15,387 nucleotides of DNA from Acidobacteriaceae bacterium (lineage in GTDB: Bacteria > Acidobacteriota > Terriglobia > Terriglobales > Acidobacteriaceae): the NCBI GenBank assembly GCA_003135495.1, contig PLBX01000017.1, positions 5,118 through 20,504 of the forward strand, given 5' to 3'. A model generated the notes under the pieces. That model had not been told where the DNA came from and did not search any database. It saw nothing but the letters and a program-made list of their open reading frames with translations. Shown here in pieces: positions 1,052 to 15,387 of this stretch. Each line of letters starts with the position of its first letter. The first letter of the stretch is position 1. A program made the position numbers and the translations under genes.

Positions 1052-4000
1052 TTACTGGACGACTTGTACCATAGATGCGGTCTGGGTTTTGAAGTTCTGG
1101 CCGCTAAAAACCGCAGTTACCTTGACGTTGCCTTTAGTCGGAAATGGAATACTCACGGATGCCACTCCTCCTGAAGTTTCTACGGTTTGTCCAAACGAGC
1201 TGGTTGAGAAAGAAACCGATCCTTCTGGAACGATCCCCGTACTTGAAGTTACGGTCGCCGTGTATGTGACTGAGCTACCAGCCGGAGACGGGCTTTGGGA
1301 AGACGACAACGTCACCGTAACGGGAGCCTCGGCCACGGTAACGTTCTTAACGCCAACGCTTCCTCCGAACTGGGCGCTTCCGCTGTAGGTTGCTGTGATT
1401 GAGTGCGGTCCCGCAGCCAGGCCTGGTGCCGCAACTGTGATTGAGGTCGTGCCTCCCGAGAGCGTACCGGTGCCGAGCGCGACTCCTCCATCTTCAAAGG
1501 CGACCGTGCCGTTCGGCGTACCTGAAGCCGAAGTCACGGTTGCAGTGATCGTCAATGCATTCCCGTATACCACCGGAGTCGGGGACAACGTGATTGCCGT
1601 CGTGGTTTTGAACGGTGCTTGTACCACTTGCACCAGACTCGCTGAGGCATTTGTGAAATCTTGTCCAGCGAATACCGCCGACACCGTTACGTGTCCTGCA
1701 ACAGTGAACGGAATAGTCACCGAAGCCGTATTCGCTCCTGGCTCAAGTTGGACAGTCGTATCGTAGCTGCCGGCTTGGAACGAAACCGCTCCAACCGGAG
1801 TTAAGCCGCTAGTAGAGCTCACCGTCGCGGTAAACGTCACCGAGGTTCCGACGGGCGAGGGGTTTTGACCAGAGACTAGAGCCAGACTCGAAGGAGCCCG
1901 AGTAACGGTCAAACCTGTCGTGCCGGTACTTGCGGCGTACATTGACGTTCCGCTGTAAGTGGCTGTAAGCGAGTGCGATCCCGCTGCCAACCCCGGAGCC
2001 GCTACGGTGAGTGAGGCCGTTCCTGACAGCGTGCCGCTGCCAATTGTGACTCCTCCATCAGCAAAGGTGACTGTACCGTCCGGCGTGCCAGAGGTCGAAG
2101 TCACAGTTGCCGTTAACGTCTCGGCATCCCCGTAGGCTGCCGGCGAAGGCGACACCGCAAGAGTTGTCGTCGTTTTGAAAGCCCCTTGCACTAGCTGCAC
2201 CAAGCTCGCGGAGGATGATTGGAAGTTTTGTCCCGCGAAGACGGCAGAAACCGTGACATGTCCCGCAGTGGCAAATGTGATGCTTACCGAAGCCGATGCT
2301 GTTCCTCCGGCTCCCGAAACCTGAACGGTGTTGGCATAGCTCCCAGCATGGAACGAAATCGCTCCCACCGGAGACGCTCCCGAACTCGAGGTCACTGTAG
2401 CCGTAAATGTTACGGGAGTATTAATCACCGTCGGGTTTTGGGAGGAGGTCAACGTCATGCTCGAGGGAAGCTGAGCCTGGTTAATGGTTTCGCTCGCGGA
2501 TCCTGTGCTAGCCGCAAACAGATCGTCTCCGACGTAGCTGGCCGTCAAGTTATGTGTTCCTACTGAAAGGGTCTGCACGCTGATTGTGGCGGTGCCACCA
2601 GTGAGCAAAGCGGTGCCAAGGGTGACGCCTCCATCAGCGAAAGTAATTGATCCAACCGGCGTTCCGGAGGTGGAAGTTACAGTCGCTGTCAGAGTAATCG
2701 GGTTCCAATAGGTGGATGGGTTGGGGGTCGCCGATAGGGTTGTTGTGGTTGAGCCTGGCTGGCTGTCGTTGAGCAATACCGCGACTACGCCCGCGTTATC
2801 GTACTGCGCGACTGCAAGGTCCGGCCTGCCATCGCCATTGAAATCTCCAACTGCGAGGCCGGCTGGGACAGTGTTTGCTGGGTAAGACACTGCAGCTTCA
2901 AATTTTCCGTTACCGTCTCCAAGAAGCAGACTCACTGTTCCCGAGTTCGCATCCGAGAGAACGATGTCAAGCGCGCCGCTGTGGATGAAATCCGCAAGCG
3001 CGATCGCATCCGAGCCGTTCCCCGCGCTGGCATAAGTTGTGGGTGAGGCAAACGTTCCGCCAGCCTGACCCAGAAAAACATCGACCGAGCCAGATGTGTC
3101 GCAGGGACTGATACTGTCGCCACATGCGTTTACTAAAGCGAGGTCGAGCTTTCCATCCCCGTTCACATCGCCGATTGCCACCCCCGAGGTGTTCGTGCCG
3201 CTCGCGTTGATCGTGCTCGCTGCACCGAATCCGCCTGACCCGTTGCTCAAAAACACGGTCGCGGAACCGCCTGAATTCGCGACCACGATGTCCTTTGCGC
3301 CATCGCCATTAAGATCGGCTAAAGCTACTGCAACACTCTCCACTCCCGTCGTAGGATAGGTAGTCGCGGTGCCAAACACTCCAGCGCCGGTTCCGGGAAC
3401 CACATCCACTGAACTTGCAACGCAAGTGCTATCCGTACAGCCGTTTACTAAGACCAAGTCAGGAATGCCGTCGCCGGTAACATCGCCGGCCGCGATCGCA
3501 TTCAGATACATCCCTGAACTTAGAATCGTGAGGCTCGGACTCGAAGGAAACGTTCCGTCGCCATTATTGAAGAAAATGTCTACCGAGCCAGTAGCGCAAC
3601 CGATGCTAGCGCAGCTGTTGCCGACGGCGATGTCGGGATAGCCGTCGCCGTTAAGGTCGGCAATGAGCACCGAACTGGGCGAGGCATACAGCCCTGAAGT
3701 TGCCTGGGAGACTGGCGTCGCGAAGGTTCCGTCGCCATTGCCCAGCAGAATGCTGATGCCCGGCGTCGTCGTGCAAGTGCTTTCCGAGCAGTTTTCCGCG
3801 ACCACGAGATCAAGTTTGCCATCTCCATTCAGGTCGCCGGTCGCCACTGCCTGAGGATAAGGTGTTACAGAAAGAGTCGAAGGCGCCCCAAAAACCCCAG
3901 AACCGGCTAGCGGCCTCTTAATGTTAGTGGCGGCGGCCCGGTTCTGCTGACGCGCTCCAGCAACAATTCGCTGTAGCAAGGATTGGTGATGTTGCGTGGA

Positions 4001-4099
4001 CGTGGCTGTGGCGCTAGCTGCGCCGGCCAGAGTGAAAGTGATAAATAAGATAGCACTAAGGAACCAAGTGCCGTTGAGAAGTGAACGCTTTAGGGTCAT
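1052..4099 (-). CDS. Secreted FG-GAP/VCBS beta-propeller protein with bacterial Ig-like repeats
   Basis: This 1015-residue protein starts with a signal peptide (MTLKRSLLNG, then a hydrophobic run ending about AGAASA, residue 30). Residues 70-445 hold seven FG-GAP/VCBS repeats with calcium-loop motifs at 89-97, 148-156, 206-214, 262-270, 311-319, 370-378 and 419-427. Six fit D-x-(N/T)-G-D-G-x-x-D; the sixth (DFIHSGALD) is degenerate. Seven repeats would close one integrin-alpha-like propeller. Blades 1, 2, 3 and 5 each carry a close cysteine pair (104/109, 163/168, 221/226, 326/333). Residues 451-1015 are six Ig-like domains alternating between two types, with no anchor or sorting signal after them. 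The family is extracellular or surface-associated; the ligand is unknown. Start: GGAGG lies 6 nt before the ATG. The gene follows the alpha/beta-hydrolase-fold gene after 59 bp and may be cotranscribed with it. It ends in a strong terminator. Confidence 0.9.
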   Translation of the reverse strand: MTLKRSLLNGTWFLSAILFITFTLAGAASATATSTQHHQSLLQRIVAGARQQNRAAATNIKRPLAGSGVFGAPSTLSVTPYPQAVATGDLNGDGKLDLVVAENCSESTCTTTPGISILLGNGDGTFATPVSQATSGLYASPSSVLIADLNGDGYPDIAVGNSCASIGCATGSVDIFFNNGDGTFPSSPSLTILSSGMYLNAIAAGDVTGDGIPDLVLVNGCTDSTCVASSVDVVPGTGAGVFGTATTYPTTGVESVAVALADLNGDGAKDIVVANSGGSATVFLSNGSGGFGAASTINASGTNTSGVAIGDVNGDGKLDLALVNACGDSISPCDTSGSVDVFLGQAGGTFASPTTYASAGNGSDAIALADFIHSGALDIVLSDANSGTVSLLLGDGNGKFEAAVSYPANTVPAGLAVGDFNGDGRPDLAVAQYDNAGVVAVLLNDSQPGSTTTTLSATPNPSTYWNPITLTATVTSTSGTPVGSITFADGGVTLGTALLTGGTATISVQTLSVGTHNLTASYVGDDLFAASTGSASETINQAQLPSSMTLTSSQNPTVINTPVTFTATVTSSSGASPVGAISFHAGSYANTVQVSGAGGTASASVSITFATAGHVTVSAVFAGQNFQSSSASLVQLVQGAFKTTTTLAVSPSPAAYGDAETLTATVTSTSGTPDGTVTFADGGVTIGSGTLSGTASLTVAAPGLAAGSHSLTATYSGTSMYAASTGTTGLTVTRAPSSLALVSGQNPSPVGTSVTFTATVSSTSGLTPVGAVSFQAGSYDTTVQLEPGANTASVTIPFTVAGHVTVSAVFAGQDFTNASASLVQVVQAPFKTTTAITLSPTPVVYGNALTITATVTSASGTPNGTVAFEDGGVALGTGTLSGGTTSITVAAPGLAAGPHSITATYSGSAQFGGSVGVKNVTVAEAPVTVTLSSSQSPSPAGSSVTYTATVTSSTGIVPEGSVSFSTSSFGQTVETSGGVASVSIPFPTKGNVKVTAVFSGQNFKTQTASMVQVVQ
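1055..2749 (-). repeat. Three tandem A-B pairs of Ig-like repeats inside the propeller gene
   Basis: The 3' part of the gene is built from three consecutive units of about 570 bp (2177-2749, 1610-2176, 1055-1609). Each encodes one A-type domain (TTLS.TPNP ... GSITFADGG ... LTATYSG) and one B-type domain (SSQNP ... VGA.SF.AGSY ... HVTVSAVFAGQ.F ... ASLVQ.VQ). Protein boundaries are A 451-542, B 543-641, A 642-735, B 736-830, A 831-925, B 926-1015. The pattern points to duplication of an A-B pair rather than of single domains. Confidence 0.85.
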
Positions 4100-8267: not shown

Positions 8268-11069
8268 CTACTGTAAGTTCATCGTTAAGGTCAAGACATG
8301 ATTAATTTGCCCGTTCGCCGAAGCCGTGACACTGAATTGACGCGCGCCGAGCGGCTGGGATCCCGGGTCCGGCACCGCTTTACTGCCGCCACAAGCGATC
8401 CACAATGCTATGGACAGCAGCAGCCCAACAAAACCCAATTGAGCAACGCGTCTCCGTGTCTGTCTCCGCAACGGAACGATCAATAGGCCGAACGTTCCCG
8501 GAAAAAGCAGTGCGTAAATAACGTTCAGTTTTGTTCGAAACCCATGACGCGAAGAAGCCGTTGGCCCCGTGGTCGAGATGACCATCGTAGTCGTTACAGG
8601 GCCACCAGTGCCCGCCAGCGTCATGGGCAAGAAGGCGCAGGTCGCTTCCGACGGCAGGCCGTAACAGCCAAACGTAATCGTTGGACCATATGTTGGAATC
8701 GAAGGCGTCACTGTTACAGGAATAAACGCATTGCTCCCGGCTGTGATGTCGAACGTCGAGACTGTGGAGCTAATCGAAAAATCAGCCACAAACAGGGTCG
8801 AGGGCACAGAACTGGAGTTTGAAAGGGTCGCGCTGCCGCTATAAACGGCAGTCACAGAAGTCGTGCCATCCGGGGGTGTGGCAATGAGAGTAAGATTTGA
8901 TGGATCAAACGGCACAGATGCAAACGGGCCTGTGTTACTAAGAAGCGTAATTGTGCCGTCTAATGGGGTACTGCCACTAGTCACCTGTACCACCGAGTAG
9001 GTGAACGCCAGACTTGTTCCTGAAACAGCCTGTTGCACCACGGAGGAATTGAGTGAAGAGGTGACGCTCAGCGTGGTGACCGTCTGGTTGGGATTGCCTA
9101 CGGAAAGTACACCGAACACGGTCGCAAAGTTATTGACATCCAGTGAGCCCAGCCCAGTGGCCTGATCGTACCCCTTGCCGGCGCTATAACCAATCTGGTA
9201 GGGAATAACCGGGGGGCAGGTGACAGTACCGGGCACGCAGGCTACCACATTATTCCCTTTTTGAATGTCATGAAAGATATTCCCGGACGTAGCAACCGGA
9301 CTTTTCAATAGCAGCTGATACAAGGCTGGATTCACATTCCCGAGGCCAGGTTTCGCTTGAATCCCTTGAGCGACAAAATATTGATTAACCAGCCCCATGA
9401 TTCCCGCAAATAAGGACGATGCTACTTCCGTTCCGCCGCCCGCCGTAACTCCCGGAAACCCAGTCGCACAGCTTCCCACAACGCAAGCCATAAAAGCGTC
9501 GTGGCTGGCCGAGGCGGCGAATGCTAAATCGGGCACGTCCCGCACACCATCAAGAGGAACTCCAGCAACCCCGGATTGCCACGAGGGCTTCGCAAATCCT
9601 CCGCTACAATTTCCGTTGCTCCCGGTGGCACAACTACTGGCTCCGCCACCGCTCGCCGAAAGACCGGAGGACGGTTGCGAGCGGTTCCACACAATTTCCG
9701 GAATGTACGAAAGCGCGGACCCCTGATTTGCAGTATTCACGACGGACCAATAAAGTCCCGTCCCTTCCTTGAACTCCGAGCCGCCAACACCAGTAACCTC
9801 AGGGCTGCTTGCCGGATAATTCACCGAGAGGCCATGAATTGCCTCCCCCTCGATCGGCACGTCGACTTCGTCGCAGGCCGCAGCGCCCGTATCTCCGGAC
9901 GCCGAAACAACCGTAATCCCCTCAGCATTTGCTTTCTGTAATTCAGTCTCAAAGCTCGCGATCGTCGTCCCACCAACTAGTTGTTCGCAGCCCGCAAAAG
10001 GCATCGCGATGACTGGCGCCAAATTTTTGTCAATCACATATTGCGCCGCACTCAAGACGCCTCCGGCACTGGCGGCCGAATACACATACAGGATCGTCGC
10101 GTTCCGCGCGACAGCACCCGACCACTCTAGTTGTAGGTCCATTTCGGCTTCGTCGGGTAGGTGACCAGGGTCGGGGGTGCCTGGGACCAATACAACTTGA
10201 GGATCGTTTGCCGGCAGATTGAAACCAGCCCGAAATTGCTCAATGTCGCTCAGTGTGATGTCGGAATCCCCAATCACCGCAAGCGTCTGCCCAGTTCCGT
10301 CGATCCCAGCTGAATAAAGCGGCATCATGTCATAGATCGTCGCAACATCGTCTGGGGCAAGAAAATAGGTGACGGTCTGCGAGCCGTCGGGGTTGGTTAT
10401 GATATTAGTAAAATTTGGTTTCGGCTGCGGCTCATGACTGAGTTGAGAAATACCGCGAGAAGCGGGCCTGATCTGAAAGTTGTTCAGACCGCGAAATCCA
10501 GTAATGATGTCGCTTAGATCTTCCGGAACAGATGGCTCAGAAGCATTGGCGAAGTAACTCGTCCCGTTCAATACATAATTGTGAATCTCAATATGCAGCG
10601 CAGCCTGAATGTGAGCGGCTGTGCCGCTAAAGGCGATCCAGTTCCGGCCGCGCGATTTGTGCACAATCGTCAAACCCTCACTGCGCAGCCACGCGCCAAT
10701 TTTCTCGTAATCGTCCGCGGTCATGCCGAAGCGCGCGGCATATTGCTCAGGAGTCAGCCAATGATGGTATCGCTTCGACCGCGGGTTTTGCTGCTCCGCG
10801 AGCAATCTGGCGAGAGCGGCCCGCTGGCCTAACGACGGCTTCAGTGACATCGTGACGTACGGTAAACGGTAGTCGCCCGGAACTTGACCCTGATCGTAAA
10901 CAGCATTGGCATATGGATGCACGTTGCCGCTCAACGTAACCGTGCGGTTACTATCGATGGGGCCTAATACTCGGTCGGCTATATCGTAACTCTGTGCCGG
11001 CGACTTATAAGTAAACGAGAAAATTCCTGTCACAATAAGAACGAGAATTCGCCTTCGAATGCACAACAT
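8268..11069 (-). CDS. S53 (sedolisin/pro-kumamolisin) family protein with Ig-like C-terminus, nucleophile Ser replaced by Glu
   Basis: I start at the ATG at 11069 (933 residues): TTAGGGG lies 7 nt upstream and the product begins MLCIRRRILVLIVTGIF, a signal peptide. A TTG at 11114 would sit at the predicted transcription start and lacks a ribosome site. Order: pro-kumamolisin propeptide about 45-190 (RYHHWLTPEQYAARFG), S53 domain about 235-655, Ig-like region about 660-835, then two hydrophobic segments (about 850-866 and 877-893) around an Arg-rich loop and a C-terminal beta stretch. Family residues seen: Glu307 and Asp311 (EAEMD), Asp393 (SASGDTG), RDVPDL at 510-515, and calcium ligands Asp601/Ile602 and G-K-G-Y-D at 631-635. 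The nucleophile motif GGTS-x-x-x-P reads GGTEVASS, so Glu548 (GAA, 9426-9428) replaces Ser. S53 enzymes are secreted, acid-active endopeptidases; this one is probably inactive as a serine-carboxyl peptidase. Confidence 0.88.
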   Translation of the reverse strand: MLCIRRRILVLIVTGIFSFTYKSPAQSYDIADRVLGPIDSNRTVTLSGNVHPYANAVYDQGQVPGDYRLPYVTMSLKPSLGQRAALARLLAEQQNPRSKRYHHWLTPEQYAARFGMTADDYEKIGAWLRSEGLTIVHKSRGRNWIAFSGTAAHIQAALHIEIHNYVLNGTSYFANASEPSVPEDLSDIITGFRGLNNFQIRPASRGISQLSHEPQPKPNFTNIITNPDGSQTVTYFLAPDDVATIYDMMPLYSAGIDGTGQTLAVIGDSDITLSDIEQFRAGFNLPANDPQVVLVPGTPDPGHLPDEAEMDLQLEWSGAVARNATILYVYSAASAGGVLSAAQYVIDKNLAPVIAMPFAGCEQLVGGTTIASFETELQKANAEGITVVSASGDTGAAACDEVDVPIEGEAIHGLSVNYPASSPEVTGVGGSEFKEGTGLYWSVVNTANQGSALSYIPEIVWNRSQPSSGLSASGGGASSCATGSNGNCSGGFAKPSWQSGVAGVPLDGVRDVPDLAFAASASHDAFMACVVGSCATGFPGVTAGGGTEVASSLFAGIMGLVNQYFVAQGIQAKPGLGNVNPALYQLLLKSPVATSGNIFHDIQKGNNVVACVPGTVTCPPVIPYQIGYSAGKGYDQATGLGSLDVNNFATVFGVLSVGNPNQTVTTLSVTSSLNSSVVQQAVSGTSLAFTYSVVQVTSGSTPLDGTITLLSNTGPFASVPFDPSNLTLIATPPDGTTSVTAVYSGSATLSNSSSVPSTLFVADFSISSTVSTFDITAGSNAFIPVTVTPSIPTYGPTITFGCYGLPSEATCAFLPMTLAGTGGPVTTTMVISTTGPTASSRHGFRTKLNVIYALLFPGTFGLLIVPLRRQTRRRVAQLGFVGLLLSIALWIACGGSKAVPDPGSQPLGARQFSVTASANGQINHVLTLTMNLQ

Positions 11070-11117
11070 GCACCAACCCCTAACCCAAGTTTTCGAGATG
11101 CCTCGTAGAGGCAAAGT

Positions 11118-13336: not shown

Positions 13337-14218
13337 ATGCCATACGTGAACGTCGGTAAAGAAAACTCCAGTGACATCGACCTCTACTACGAGGACCACG
13401 GCTCTGGTAGGCCCGTCGTCCTAATTCACGGATATCCGCTGAACGGTGCTTCCTGGGAGAAGCAGCTGCCAGTTCTCTTGGAAGCAGGCCACCGCGTCAT
13501 CACTTATGACCGCCGAGGATTCGGCAAGTCCAGCCAGCCAACCACGGGCTACAACTACGACACATTCGCCGAGGATCTGCACACGCTGGTGACGCACCTC
13601 AAACTTCGTGATTTCGTGCTAGTCGGTTTTTCGATGGGTGGCGGCGAAGTGGCGCGCTATCTGGGGAAATACGGATCAAAGGGGGTGAGCAAGGCGGTAA
13701 TCATCTCGGGGGTTCCGCCGTTCTTGCTGAAGACGCCTGACAACCCCGAGGGCGTGGACGGCAGCGTCTTCGAGGGGATACAGAAAGCCGTCGTCGCAGA
13801 CCGCTACGCGTTCTTCACCGAGTTTTTCAAGAATTTCTACAACACGGACCTTCTGCTGGGCAAGCGTGTCAGCGAACAGGCGGTTCAAGCCAGCTGGAAC
13901 GTCGCCGCCGGAGCCTCGGCCACGGCCAGTCTCGCTTGCGTTCCAACGTGGCATGAGGACTTCCGCAAGGACCTAGGCCGCATCGACGTGCCCACGCTAG
14001 TTATTCACGGCGATGCGGACCGGATTCTACCCATCACTGTCACCGGGCTCCGGACCGCCAAGGTGATCAAGGGAGCCCGTCTATCGGTGGTGAAGGATGG
14101 ACCGCACTGTATAACCTGGACCCACGCAGAGGAAGTGAACTCTGAATTAGCTAACTTCCTTGGGAAAGGGGCTGCGCAGCGTGCAGCTTCAGCGCCCCAG
14201 CACGAGGCAGTTGCGTAA
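13337..14218 (+). CDS. Cofactor-free haloperoxidase-type alpha/beta hydrolase
   Basis: The 293-residue product matches the non-heme chloroperoxidase/bromoperoxidase branch of alpha/beta hydrolases: VVLIHGYPLNGASWEKQ (27-43) is the oxyanion region, ITYDRRGFGKSSQP (55-68) is characteristic of the family, and GFSMGGGEVARY (97-108) contains nucleophile Ser99. The acid is Asp228 in HGDADRILP and the base is His257 in GPHCITWTHAEEVN, so the triad is complete. There is no signal peptide, so it should be cytoplasmic. The family performs perhydrolysis or esterase chemistry, giving peracids that oxidise halides; the natural substrate is usually unknown. The length is slightly above the family norm (about 275), with a non-conserved Ala/Gln-rich tail after residue 278. 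Start: AAGGAGA lies 6-7 nt before the ATG. It stands alone, flanked by gene-poor sequence and by two copies of a dispersed repeat. Confidence 0.93.
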   Translation: MPYVNVGKENSSDIDLYYEDHGSGRPVVLIHGYPLNGASWEKQLPVLLEAGHRVITYDRRGFGKSSQPTTGYNYDTFAEDLHTLVTHLKLRDFVLVGFSMGGGEVARYLGKYGSKGVSKAVIISGVPPFLLKTPDNPEGVDGSVFEGIQKAVVADRYAFFTEFFKNFYNTDLLLGKRVSEQAVQASWNVAAGASATASLACVPTWHEDFRKDLGRIDVPTLVIHGDADRILPITVTGLRTAKVIKGARLSVVKDGPHCITWTHAEEVNSELANFLGKGAAQRAASAPQHEAVA

Positions 14219-14303
14219 GCAAACCGTTCTTTGAGTGCTATTTCACAGAGGGTACCGTCTCCGGCGGCACCCCAACCATTGATCTTGCGCCAGAGAATAA
14301 CAA

Positions 14304-14409
14304 ATCCGCGGTAGCACGGACTCGCCGGGCAGTCAGAAAATCGAACCATTCTCCGAGAATGCCTGGCAGGAAACCAACGTTCGGGCGACTTTTCGTGTTC
14401 TTGCTTATG
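14304..14409. repeat. Dispersed repeat, copy B
   Basis: This is the second diverged copy of the element at 12698-12807, in the same orientation. On the minus strand both copies encode a similar short peptide (G-F-x-P-G-I-x-G-E-x-F-D), which may be decayed coding sequence or a coincidence of the repeat. Confidence 0.65.
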
Positions 14410-14450
14410 CTAATTGCTTGCGACCACCAAAATCCGTCCCAAGAAAAACG

Positions 14451-14464
14451 CTAATTCCAATTAG
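14451..14464. promoter_or_regulatory. 14-nt palindrome upstream of formate dehydrogenase
   Basis: The sequence ctaatt-cc-aattag has 6-bp perfect arms and lies 82-95 bases before the formate dehydrogenase start. It could be an operator for a dimeric regulator. It does not match a site I can name. Confidence 0.3.
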
Positions 14465-14545
14465 CCCGTCATCCGAAACCAACCGGCAAGACGGACCCAG
14501 ATCAAAGGGTGCTACGATTCTCCTCACATCTACTTTGGGAATATT

Positions 14546-15387
14546 ATGCTGAGACCAATGCAAGCCCGTCTGACCCAACCACTGGTGTGCGAGAACGGTT
14601 CGCATCGTCCCGCTACGTGGGATGAAGCCATGGACCGCGTCGCTGCAGCGTTCAGCAAATCCATCGAGAAAAACGATCCGCGGAACTTTGGCATGTTCAG
14701 TTGCTCCAAGACCACTAACGAACTGAACTACGCGGCGCAGAAATTCGTCCGCAGCGTGATGGGCACGAACAATATCGATAGCTGCAACCGGACTTGACAC
14801 GCCCCTAGCGTCGCCGGTCTGGCGGCGGTATTCGGAGCAGGTGGCGGGACAAGCTCGTATCGCGAAATTGAAGGCACTAACGTGATCCTGCTGTGGGGAT
14901 CGAACGCCCGGGAAACGCACCCGATCTTTTTTCATCATTTGCTGAAAGGCATTCGCAACGGCGCTGAACTCTATGTCGTGGATCCGCGGCGCACCAGTTC
15001 CGCGCAATGGGCCAATCTCTGGCTGGGCCTGGACGTGGGTTCCGATATTTCGCTGGCCAACGCGATGGGCCGCGAAATCATCGTCGCCGGGCTGGCTAAC
15101 GAAAAGTTCATCCAAAACGCCACTAGCGGATTCGAAGCCTACAAGGCCCACGTTGAGAAATACACCCTCGAGCGAGCCGAGCGTGAGACGGGCGTGCCCG
15201 CTGAAGCCATCCGCAGAATGGCCCATGCCTACGGCAGCGCTCCGCGCGCCCAAATCTGCTGGACTCTGGGTATCACGGAGCATCACGACGCCGTGGACAA
15301 TGTCGTCGCCCTCATCAACCTTGCGCTGCTTACCGGGCACGTGGGCCGCTACGGAAGTGGGGTGAACCCCCTGCGCGGACAGAACAA
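14546..15387 (+). CDS. fdhF: Formate dehydrogenase catalytic subunit, selenocysteine-containing (partial)
   Basis: The frame runs from an ATG at 14546 to the right edge, with one in-frame TGA at 14795-14797 read as selenocysteine 84. The context SCNRT-U-HAPSVAGL equals the ARV-U-HGPSVAGL active site of E. coli FdhF (Sec140, His141). The following sequence is continuous molybdopterin oxidoreductase: VILLWGSNARETHPIF, LYVVDPRRTSSAQWA, LGLDVGSDISLANAMG, CWTLGITEHHDAVDN and LLTGHVGRYGSGVNPLRGQN. It oxidises formate to CO2 at a Mo- or W-bis-pterin centre; Sec and the adjacent His are at the metal site. The N-terminus begins directly at the pterin domain (RLTQPLV...TWDEAMDRVA), about 56 residues shorter than E. 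coli FdhF, so the [4Fe-4S] domain with its cysteines and Lys44 is absent. The ribosome site is weak (GGGA). A start at Met5 (14558) is possible. No partner subunit is in view. Confidence 0.9.
14795..14830 (+). promoter_or_regulatory. Bacterial SECIS element with selenocysteine UGA
   Basis: Starting with the UGA (14795-14797), a stem of seven pairs (14809-14815 with 14821-14827, one U-G) carries the loop GGUCU at 14816-14820. Counting the U of UGA as 1, U17 (14811) and G22-G23-U24-C25-U26 are all at the positions they hold in the E. coli fdhF SECIS, where U17 and the GU of the loop contact SelB. The next base after UGA is C, also as in E. coli. Confidence 0.9.

Follow-up and report, generated by a model that had tools for sequence, protein, structure and literature searches.

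Escherichia coli FdhF (FDH-H), a formate dehydrogenase (FDH), carries a [4Fe-4S] domain within its chain and, to our knowledge, has no diaphorase. In Rhodobacter capsulatus FdsABG(D) (6tg9/6tga), a HoxU-like iron-sulfur (Fe-S) module, a proximal [4Fe-4S] domain and an FdhF-like catalytic module are combined with a NuoE-/NuoF-like diaphorase. According to a passage of PMC7171172, FDHs share a subunit that holds bis-molybdopterin guanine dinucleotide (bis-MGD) and binds the proximal cluster too; the same paper mentions a different division in Methanothermobacter wolfeii, where an extra subunit takes the place of the FdsA C-terminus. Here we analyse a 15,387-nucleotide stretch of Acidobacteriaceae bacterium DNA (assembly GCA_003135495.1, contig PLBX01000017.1, positions 5,118 to 20,504 of the forward strand; hereafter the window), at the end of which lies fdhA-C, a gene for the catalytic half of an FDH alpha subunit with a selenocysteine (Sec) codon. 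Judged by its sequence, this chain is predicted not to bind the proximal [4Fe-4S] cluster itself, the cysteine motif sitting in a separate protein.

A probable selenocysteine catalytic chain without its N-terminal domain

The gene is defined in the window by three features:

14546..15387, + strand: fdhA-C, catalytic (Mo/W-bis-pyranopterin guanine dinucleotide) half of the FDH alpha subunit, matching PF00384 and TIGR01591, with Sec as codon 84
14546..14548, + strand: probable start codon ATG, seven codons 5′ of a conserved RLTxPL motif
14795..14797, + strand: in-frame TGA, read as the selenocysteine codon at the metal-ligand position from homologue conservation and alignment to solved FDHs

The open reading frame (ORF) at 14546–14797 encodes 83 aa, and the same frame stays open past the TGA up to the window end, just as an earlier note on this DNA had said in observing that standard calling would stop at 14797 and leave a fragment followed by an open frame. 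Truncated by the window end, the gene extends on the contig (locus L018) to 630 codons. A 2-N scaffold gap lies just past the window, flanked by a 6-base duplicate; closing the gap on this duplicated overlap gives one 630-codon ORF with a normal stop, in which the TGA is the sole in-frame stop. The source is a metagenome-assembled genome (MAG), 75% complete and in 592 contigs. A separate MAG, Acidobacteriaceae bacterium isolate palsa_280, holds a 99.7%-identical copy on a gap-free contig (locus L051, PKXQ01000140.1) with the same ORF and likewise TGA, not TGC or TGT. Because the same break and the same TGA recur in many independent records, a pseudogene or an assembly error was rejected.

The TGA aligns with the Sec/Cys metal ligand of solved FDHs, a residue given as X (non-standard) in 9t1s chain L, so the placement of the TGA on the catalytic Sec, proposed from the window alone, agrees with both solved structures and homologues. 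With UGA written as C, position 84 (Sec or Cys), H85 and R277 do not vary across 22 aligned rows; we take R277 to be the equivalent of the catalytic Arg of the FDH active site. A protein-similarity search returned 74 loci, among them 17 close non-Streptomyces loci (L051–L066 and L077; 62–99.7% identity), all with TGA at the Sec codon, and 11 Streptomyces loci (L067–L076 and L079; 62–64% identity), all with a Cys codon (TGT or TGC). In a phylum sample of 396 genomes, 30 had a match at E <= 1e-90, each with exactly one TGA and together spanning 12 family codes, which suggests that TGA-bearing close homologues are widespread in Acidobacteriota. A family sample of 150 genomes yielded a TGA-bearing match in at least 11, among the rows listed: ten belong to the split subfamily described below, and one (G046) is a 42%-identical match later found to be fused. 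Conservation of the TGA across the 17 non-Streptomyces loci and the 30 phylum genomes excludes a chance TGA, and all 120 homologues listed align to the window protein solely from residue 95 onward. The Sec–Cys exchange seen in this alignment of both homologue types upholds the earlier note's claim of a Sec-containing FDH, and the reading that the window ORF encodes a Sec-containing FDH catalytic protein is thereby supported.

That note's reading as an ordinary FdhF-like enzyme is not supported. The absence of the N-terminal Fe-S domain had gone unnoticed, and the chain appears instead to be the catalytic piece of an FDH whose alpha subunit is split and which has a diaphorase. The window part of fdhA-C matches TIGR01591 (FDH alpha) at positions 51–325. 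The whole homologue in L051 matches positions 51–672 and scores 626.7 bits, less than the curated threshold (666.25); it contains PF00384 and PF01568 without a Molybdop_Fe4S4 domain; the structural match of the catalytic protein to E. coli FdhF begins at FdhF residue 59. The Molybdop_Fe4S4 cysteine motif is missing from the upstream frame in 36/36 rows of the subfamily, and the three + frames of window positions 14200–14560 contain no such motif. Six loci (L060, L062, L064, L066, L159 and L162) carry an in-frame stop 6–9 codons 5′ of the RLTxPL motif, making a longer N-terminus impossible there; a start codon stands at −6 or −7 relative to this motif in 21 of the 33 loci printed. Streptomyces isolates show the loss, as do MAGs labelled as three different phyla. 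We also considered whether an unusual start, or a second Sec, might add an Fe-S domain upstream, and rejected this given the absent motif (36/36) and the six upstream stops. Two further loci labelled split outside the clade were left uncounted as such: L081, which runs off a contig edge, and L037, which has a short upstream frame. L165 (from G046), which has the TGA but is a fused, 36%-identical homologue, was also excluded from the split counts.

A HoxU-like adapter carries the missing segment

In L051 the catalytic gene is followed by a NuoE–NuoF fusion (2Fe-2S_thioredx, Complex1_51K, SLBB and NADH_4Fe-4S) and then by a gene for a 315-aa protein, the adapter, with Fer2_4, Fer4 and a C-terminal Molybdop_Fe4S4 domain. 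The C-terminal piece of the adapter matches TIGR01591 positions 1–49 (45.8 bits), so that the pair covers the model without overlap (1–49 and 51–672) and neither protein alone spans it; its N-terminal part matches HoxU with 134.3 bits, under the cut-off of 333. The order catalytic gene, NuoE, NuoF, Fe-S adapter was found in 31/36 subfamily loci, and in the other five (L059, L062, L064, L070 and L079) the contig ends ahead of the adapter's last domain. NuoE and NuoF share one open frame in all 33 loci that show both. Sixteen cysteines and a CxKG lysine are common to 31/31 adapters, the four Cys of the Molybdop_Fe4S4 domain being invariant; we read the sixteen as putative ligands of one [2Fe-2S], two ferredoxin-type [4Fe-4S] and the proximal [4Fe-4S] cluster. 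By motif, the lysine would correspond to Lys44 of E. coli FDH-H, a residue that affects cluster occupancy and activity according to part of PMC12176258.

The likeness to R. capsulatus extends along the whole of FdsA: on the single chain 6tg9_A, the adapter aligns to residues 16–303 and the catalytic protein to 306–931. Whereas FdsA is one chain, the split subfamily has two genes, with the catalytic part first; its NuoE and NuoF are fused and, in the Sec forms, Sec replaces Cys. The A4 cluster of the R. capsulatus enzyme, His-ligated through His117, Cys121, Cys124 and Cys130 as stated in a section of PMC7171172, has no counterpart in 31/31 adapters. The HoxEFU diaphorase of bidirectional hydrogenases offers a second comparison, in that HoxU resembles the N-terminal part of the adapter; in the split subfamily, however, NuoE and NuoF form one chain, the adapter ends in Molybdop_Fe4S4 and has an FDH for its catalytic partner. 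Sec also occurs in fused FDH alpha subunits (L078 from a Dehalococcoidaceae MAG, L080, L082, L083 and L113), whose catalytic part is 41–43% identical and which have the same domains (checked for L078), but these are single chains outside the split branch. Fused TGA-bearing FDH alpha subunits of other lineages, L165 included, are 36–43% identical. A plasmid search with a Streptomyces adapter returned 49 records, all at <60% identity; among the 15 listed, 10 were annotated as FDH and 5 were unannotated there.

To place the split loci, a tree of 70 catalytic rows was built (quick IQ-TREE). All 36 split rows fall on one side of a branch with a Shimodaira–Hasegawa-like approximate likelihood-ratio (SH-aLRT) value of 100, within which 25 Sec rows (SH-aLRT 96) and 11 Streptomyces Cys rows (99) form two groups. 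The root was not inferred and long branches occur elsewhere in the tree, so the direction of the Sec/Cys change is not given by it. Record labels in the Sec group name Acidobacteriota, Chloroflexota and Actinomycetota, with mis-binning possible for single MAGs. Among the 30 TGA-matching phylum genomes, the N-terminal loss was checked in seven (L018, L157, L164 and L169–L172) and held in 7/7. The Streptomyces homologues show the same split, and the same gene order in 9/11 loci, those reaching far enough; they differ in having Cys for Sec, in having lost the stem described next, and in their genomes, where neither SelB (0/11) nor SelD (0/11) scored over cut-off.

A SECIS-like hairpin conserved in the Sec forms

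Downstream of the TGA lies a candidate selenocysteine insertion sequence (SECIS):

14810..14826, + strand: SECIS-like hairpin, a six-pair stem (14810–14815 with 14821–14826), from conserved pairing in Sec forms
14816..14820, + strand: apical loop GGUCU, conserved in Sec forms

The six-pair stem is complete in 23/23 distinct Sec sequences versus 0/10 distinct Cys sequences (and in 21/21 distinct Sec rows of alignment A3, the window row included), and the loop GGTCT occurs in 22/23 and 1/10, respectively. When synonymous codons were drawn from the same genes, 20% of draws gave the full stem and 10% gave GGTCT, compared with 17/17 and 16/17 of the real rows; these rows are related, hence no formal probability is attached. 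The earlier note had described an fdhF-type SECIS, and in the window the UGA-N18-GGUCU spacing, the loop and U17 are indeed all present. U17, which is bulged in the E. coli fdhF SECIS structure, is invariant in our alignment but can pair with column 31 and is thus not clearly bulged. Two-sided pair changes were confined to two cells, in Cys rows. The sole Sec locus with a GGGCU loop is L057 (3276–3317); its genome, G156, carries a SelD with one TGA and has no SelB match over cut-off.

Selenocysteine machinery and its distribution

Profile searches of the source MAG recovered SelA (528.1 bits), a tRNA-Sec with anticodon UCA (70.5 bits), and SelB as two matches on one contig with a run of N between them (225.8 and 68 bits, each piece under the cut-off of 242.25). 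The 11 family genomes with a TGA-bearing FDH include the source MAG, and a stricter tRNA-Sec filter (E <= 1e-9) was used for them; SelA was present in 11/11 and SelB over cut-off in 10/11, the exception being the gap-broken SelB of the source. Many SelD genes in the searched genomes themselves contain one TGA. G045 and G151 have identical coordinates and look like one genome entered in both lists.

In this family the FDH is no guide to which genomes use Sec: 82/150 have tRNA-Sec, whereas a TGA-bearing FDH match was counted, among the matches listed, in at least 11/150. It is therefore probable that other selenoproteins maintain the trait. The suggestion that the gene might mark a Sec-using lineage was accordingly dropped, Sec use being common in the family. 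The earlier note's alternative was a transferred gene, which may apply to this subfamily; by record labels it spans three phyla. Five genomes (G011, G063, G072, G132 and G134) each gave two tRNA-Sec-like matches over cut-off.

Gene context

Three neighbours were identified in L051: a c-type cytochrome, a protein resembling MxaJ (200.6 bits, where the cut-off is 212.15) and a pyrroloquinoline quinone (PQQ) alcohol dehydrogenase, of which the C-terminal part is present and whose truncated sequence scores 429 bits (cut-off 480). This arrangement suggests alcohol-to-formate oxidation. The flanks of all 36 subfamily loci and of L078, 37 loci in total, were surveyed. Near L053, L077, L158 and eight Streptomyces loci lies a transporter of the monocarboxylate/oxalate-formate kind; the one at L053 scores over the NCBIfam threshold for L-lactate transporters but not over that for oxalate/formate.

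A two-piece formate dehydrogenase and its alternatives

The ORF very likely specifies the catalytic chain of an FDH that is cytoplasmic and probably NAD(+)-linked, and in which the alpha subunit is divided between two genes. We infer that the division falls at the boundary of the proximal cluster, the catalytic chain receiving the cysteines of that cluster and the conserved lysine in trans. It seems reasonably likely, moreover, that the metal site is built from two polypeptides, the Sec catalytic chain passing electrons only once the HoxU-like adapter has added the proximal [4Fe-4S] cluster and the lysine; a two-piece FDH joined in trans, widespread in Acidobacteriota and with a Cys version in Streptomyces, is part of this proposal and is put forward with equal confidence. 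In such a system, UGA would be decoded as Sec through SelB, tRNA-Sec and the hairpin, and the terminal domain of the adapter would dock on the catalytic subunit and provide it in trans with the proximal cluster. Formate-derived electrons would then travel from the metal to the proximal [4Fe-4S] cluster, the ferredoxin-type [4Fe-4S] clusters, the NuoF 4Fe-4S/flavin mononucleotide (FMN) centres and NAD+; the [2Fe-2S] sites would lie either on this path or next to it. The likely role would be the dissimilation of formate from one-carbon (C1) or oxalate metabolism, and by analogy the system should function like an Fds-type FDH.

Several observations weigh against this proposal. In the source MAG, fdhA-C is accompanied by incomplete copies of the other two genes, spread over two contigs: fdhA-C, NuoE and most of NuoF lie on contig C162, where NuoF is cut by the contig end, and adapter residues 175–315 (95% identical to L051) stand at the start of contig C517, the first half missing. 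C517 then continues, like L051, with the MxaJ-like gene and the cytochrome. Structure prediction for the adapter was poor, with a mean predicted local distance difference test (pLDDT) score of 58.6, and NAD, though probably the acceptor, is assigned from NuoF homology only. Among the 37 loci surveyed, the MxaJ-like protein, cytochrome and PQQ dehydrogenase were found in the flanks of none besides L051. For the hairpin, the folding proposed in the earlier note showed no unusual stability (z −0.13, single-sequence folding); Rfam gave no match at gathering threshold, the sub-threshold hit being SECIS_3 (15.2 bits, gathering 63, E 1.2). The stem shows no compensatory (two-sided) changes in Sec rows, variation being one-sided, and a register slid by +3 also pairs 95% of cells. 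The machinery implied by that note was found as to SelA, the gap-broken SelB and tRNA-Sec, whereas SelD was not found in the 75%-complete source MAG (top score 67.9 bits; cut-off 125), although the near-identical genome G150 has it at 350.9 bits. Across the 11 family genomes, SelD was found in 9/11 (not in the source MAG or G007) and tRNA-Sec in 9/11 (none matched in G007 and G084 under the strict filters); across the genomes of the 17 Sec loci, SelD was found in 16/17 (not in G164) and SelB matched in 15/17 (not in G156 and G163). The missing SelD, tRNA-Sec and SelB matches may be gaps in MAGs, and in G007 and G084, where SelA and SelB are present, the tRNA-Sec may have diverged or fallen in such a gap.

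Four other explanations were considered. An ordinary Sec FdhF-like enzyme, its N-terminus lost to annotation or assembly, would fit the clean FdhF-like active site seen in the window alone and the fragmented state of the MAG. Such an artefact is highly improbable, however, for the domain is missing at the same place in every one of the 36 loci, in MAGs of three labelled phyla and in Streptomyces isolates alike; stops close upstream of the conserved motif occur in six, and the domain is encoded downstream in all 31 loci reaching far enough. We give still less credence to a UGA that is a true stop, whether in a decaying gene or between two pieces acting as separate proteins: the SelD not found in the source MAG and the unremarkable fold are consistent with it, but a single TGA recurs in 30/30 matching genomes of the phylum sample, the coding sequence beyond it is highly conserved, with the 120 listed homologues aligning there, and SelB and SelD accompany the TGA form, neither scoring over cut-off where the Cys form occurs.

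An enzyme working mainly as a CO2 reductase or by bifurcation, and not as an NAD+-reducing formate oxidase, strikes us as unlikely. FDH chemistry is reversible, among solved structures the best sequence match is to the FdhF subunit from hydrogen-dependent CO2 reductase, and the NuoF half resembles bifurcating-hydrogenase subunits; against this stand the PQQ alcohol dehydrogenase adjoining L051, the transporters elsewhere, and the occurrence of the system in Streptomyces, whose lifestyle is aerobic. A catalytic subunit that functions without a proximal cluster, in the manner of dimethyl sulfoxide (DMSO) reductase, while the HoxU-like protein serves another partner or merely stabilises the complex, is improbable in our estimate: the adapter holds exactly the missing segment, its four Cys and Lys are invariant in 31/31, and it lies in the same gene cluster in 31/31, even though several DMSO-reductase-family enzymes are without the cluster, as part of PMC10100899 records.

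A Sec-containing FDH in this family is by itself ordinary, because a table in the survey PMC1794560 already includes Acidobacteria with selenoproteins and FdhA is named, in a passage of PMC13188914, as the most widely distributed bacterial selenoprotein family. What would be new in the two-piece proposal is the split alpha subunit; full-text searching of the literature met no report of one, which does not in itself show its absence from print. Two effects conceal the family from annotation — the in-frame TGA, and a score slightly under the FDH cut-off owing to the split — and its members would add a hidden selenium-using, formate-oxidising capacity to Acidobacteriota. The natural cut at the cluster boundary makes the role of the cluster and lysine at the metal site testable with the catalytic chain untouched, and the presence of Sec and Cys forms inside one split branch offers a clean comparison of selenium with sulfur.

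Other reading frames in the window

An antisense open frame of 326 codons (14405–15385, − strand) runs through the FDH gene part; its 311-aa version has no Pfam match, and it is probably a shadow of codon usage. Two very long ORFs also lie on the − strand: that at 8268–11114 reads like what we presume to be a secreted S53-type protease, and that at 1052–4099 presumably encodes a protein with FG-GAP and immunoglobulin (Ig)-like repeats.
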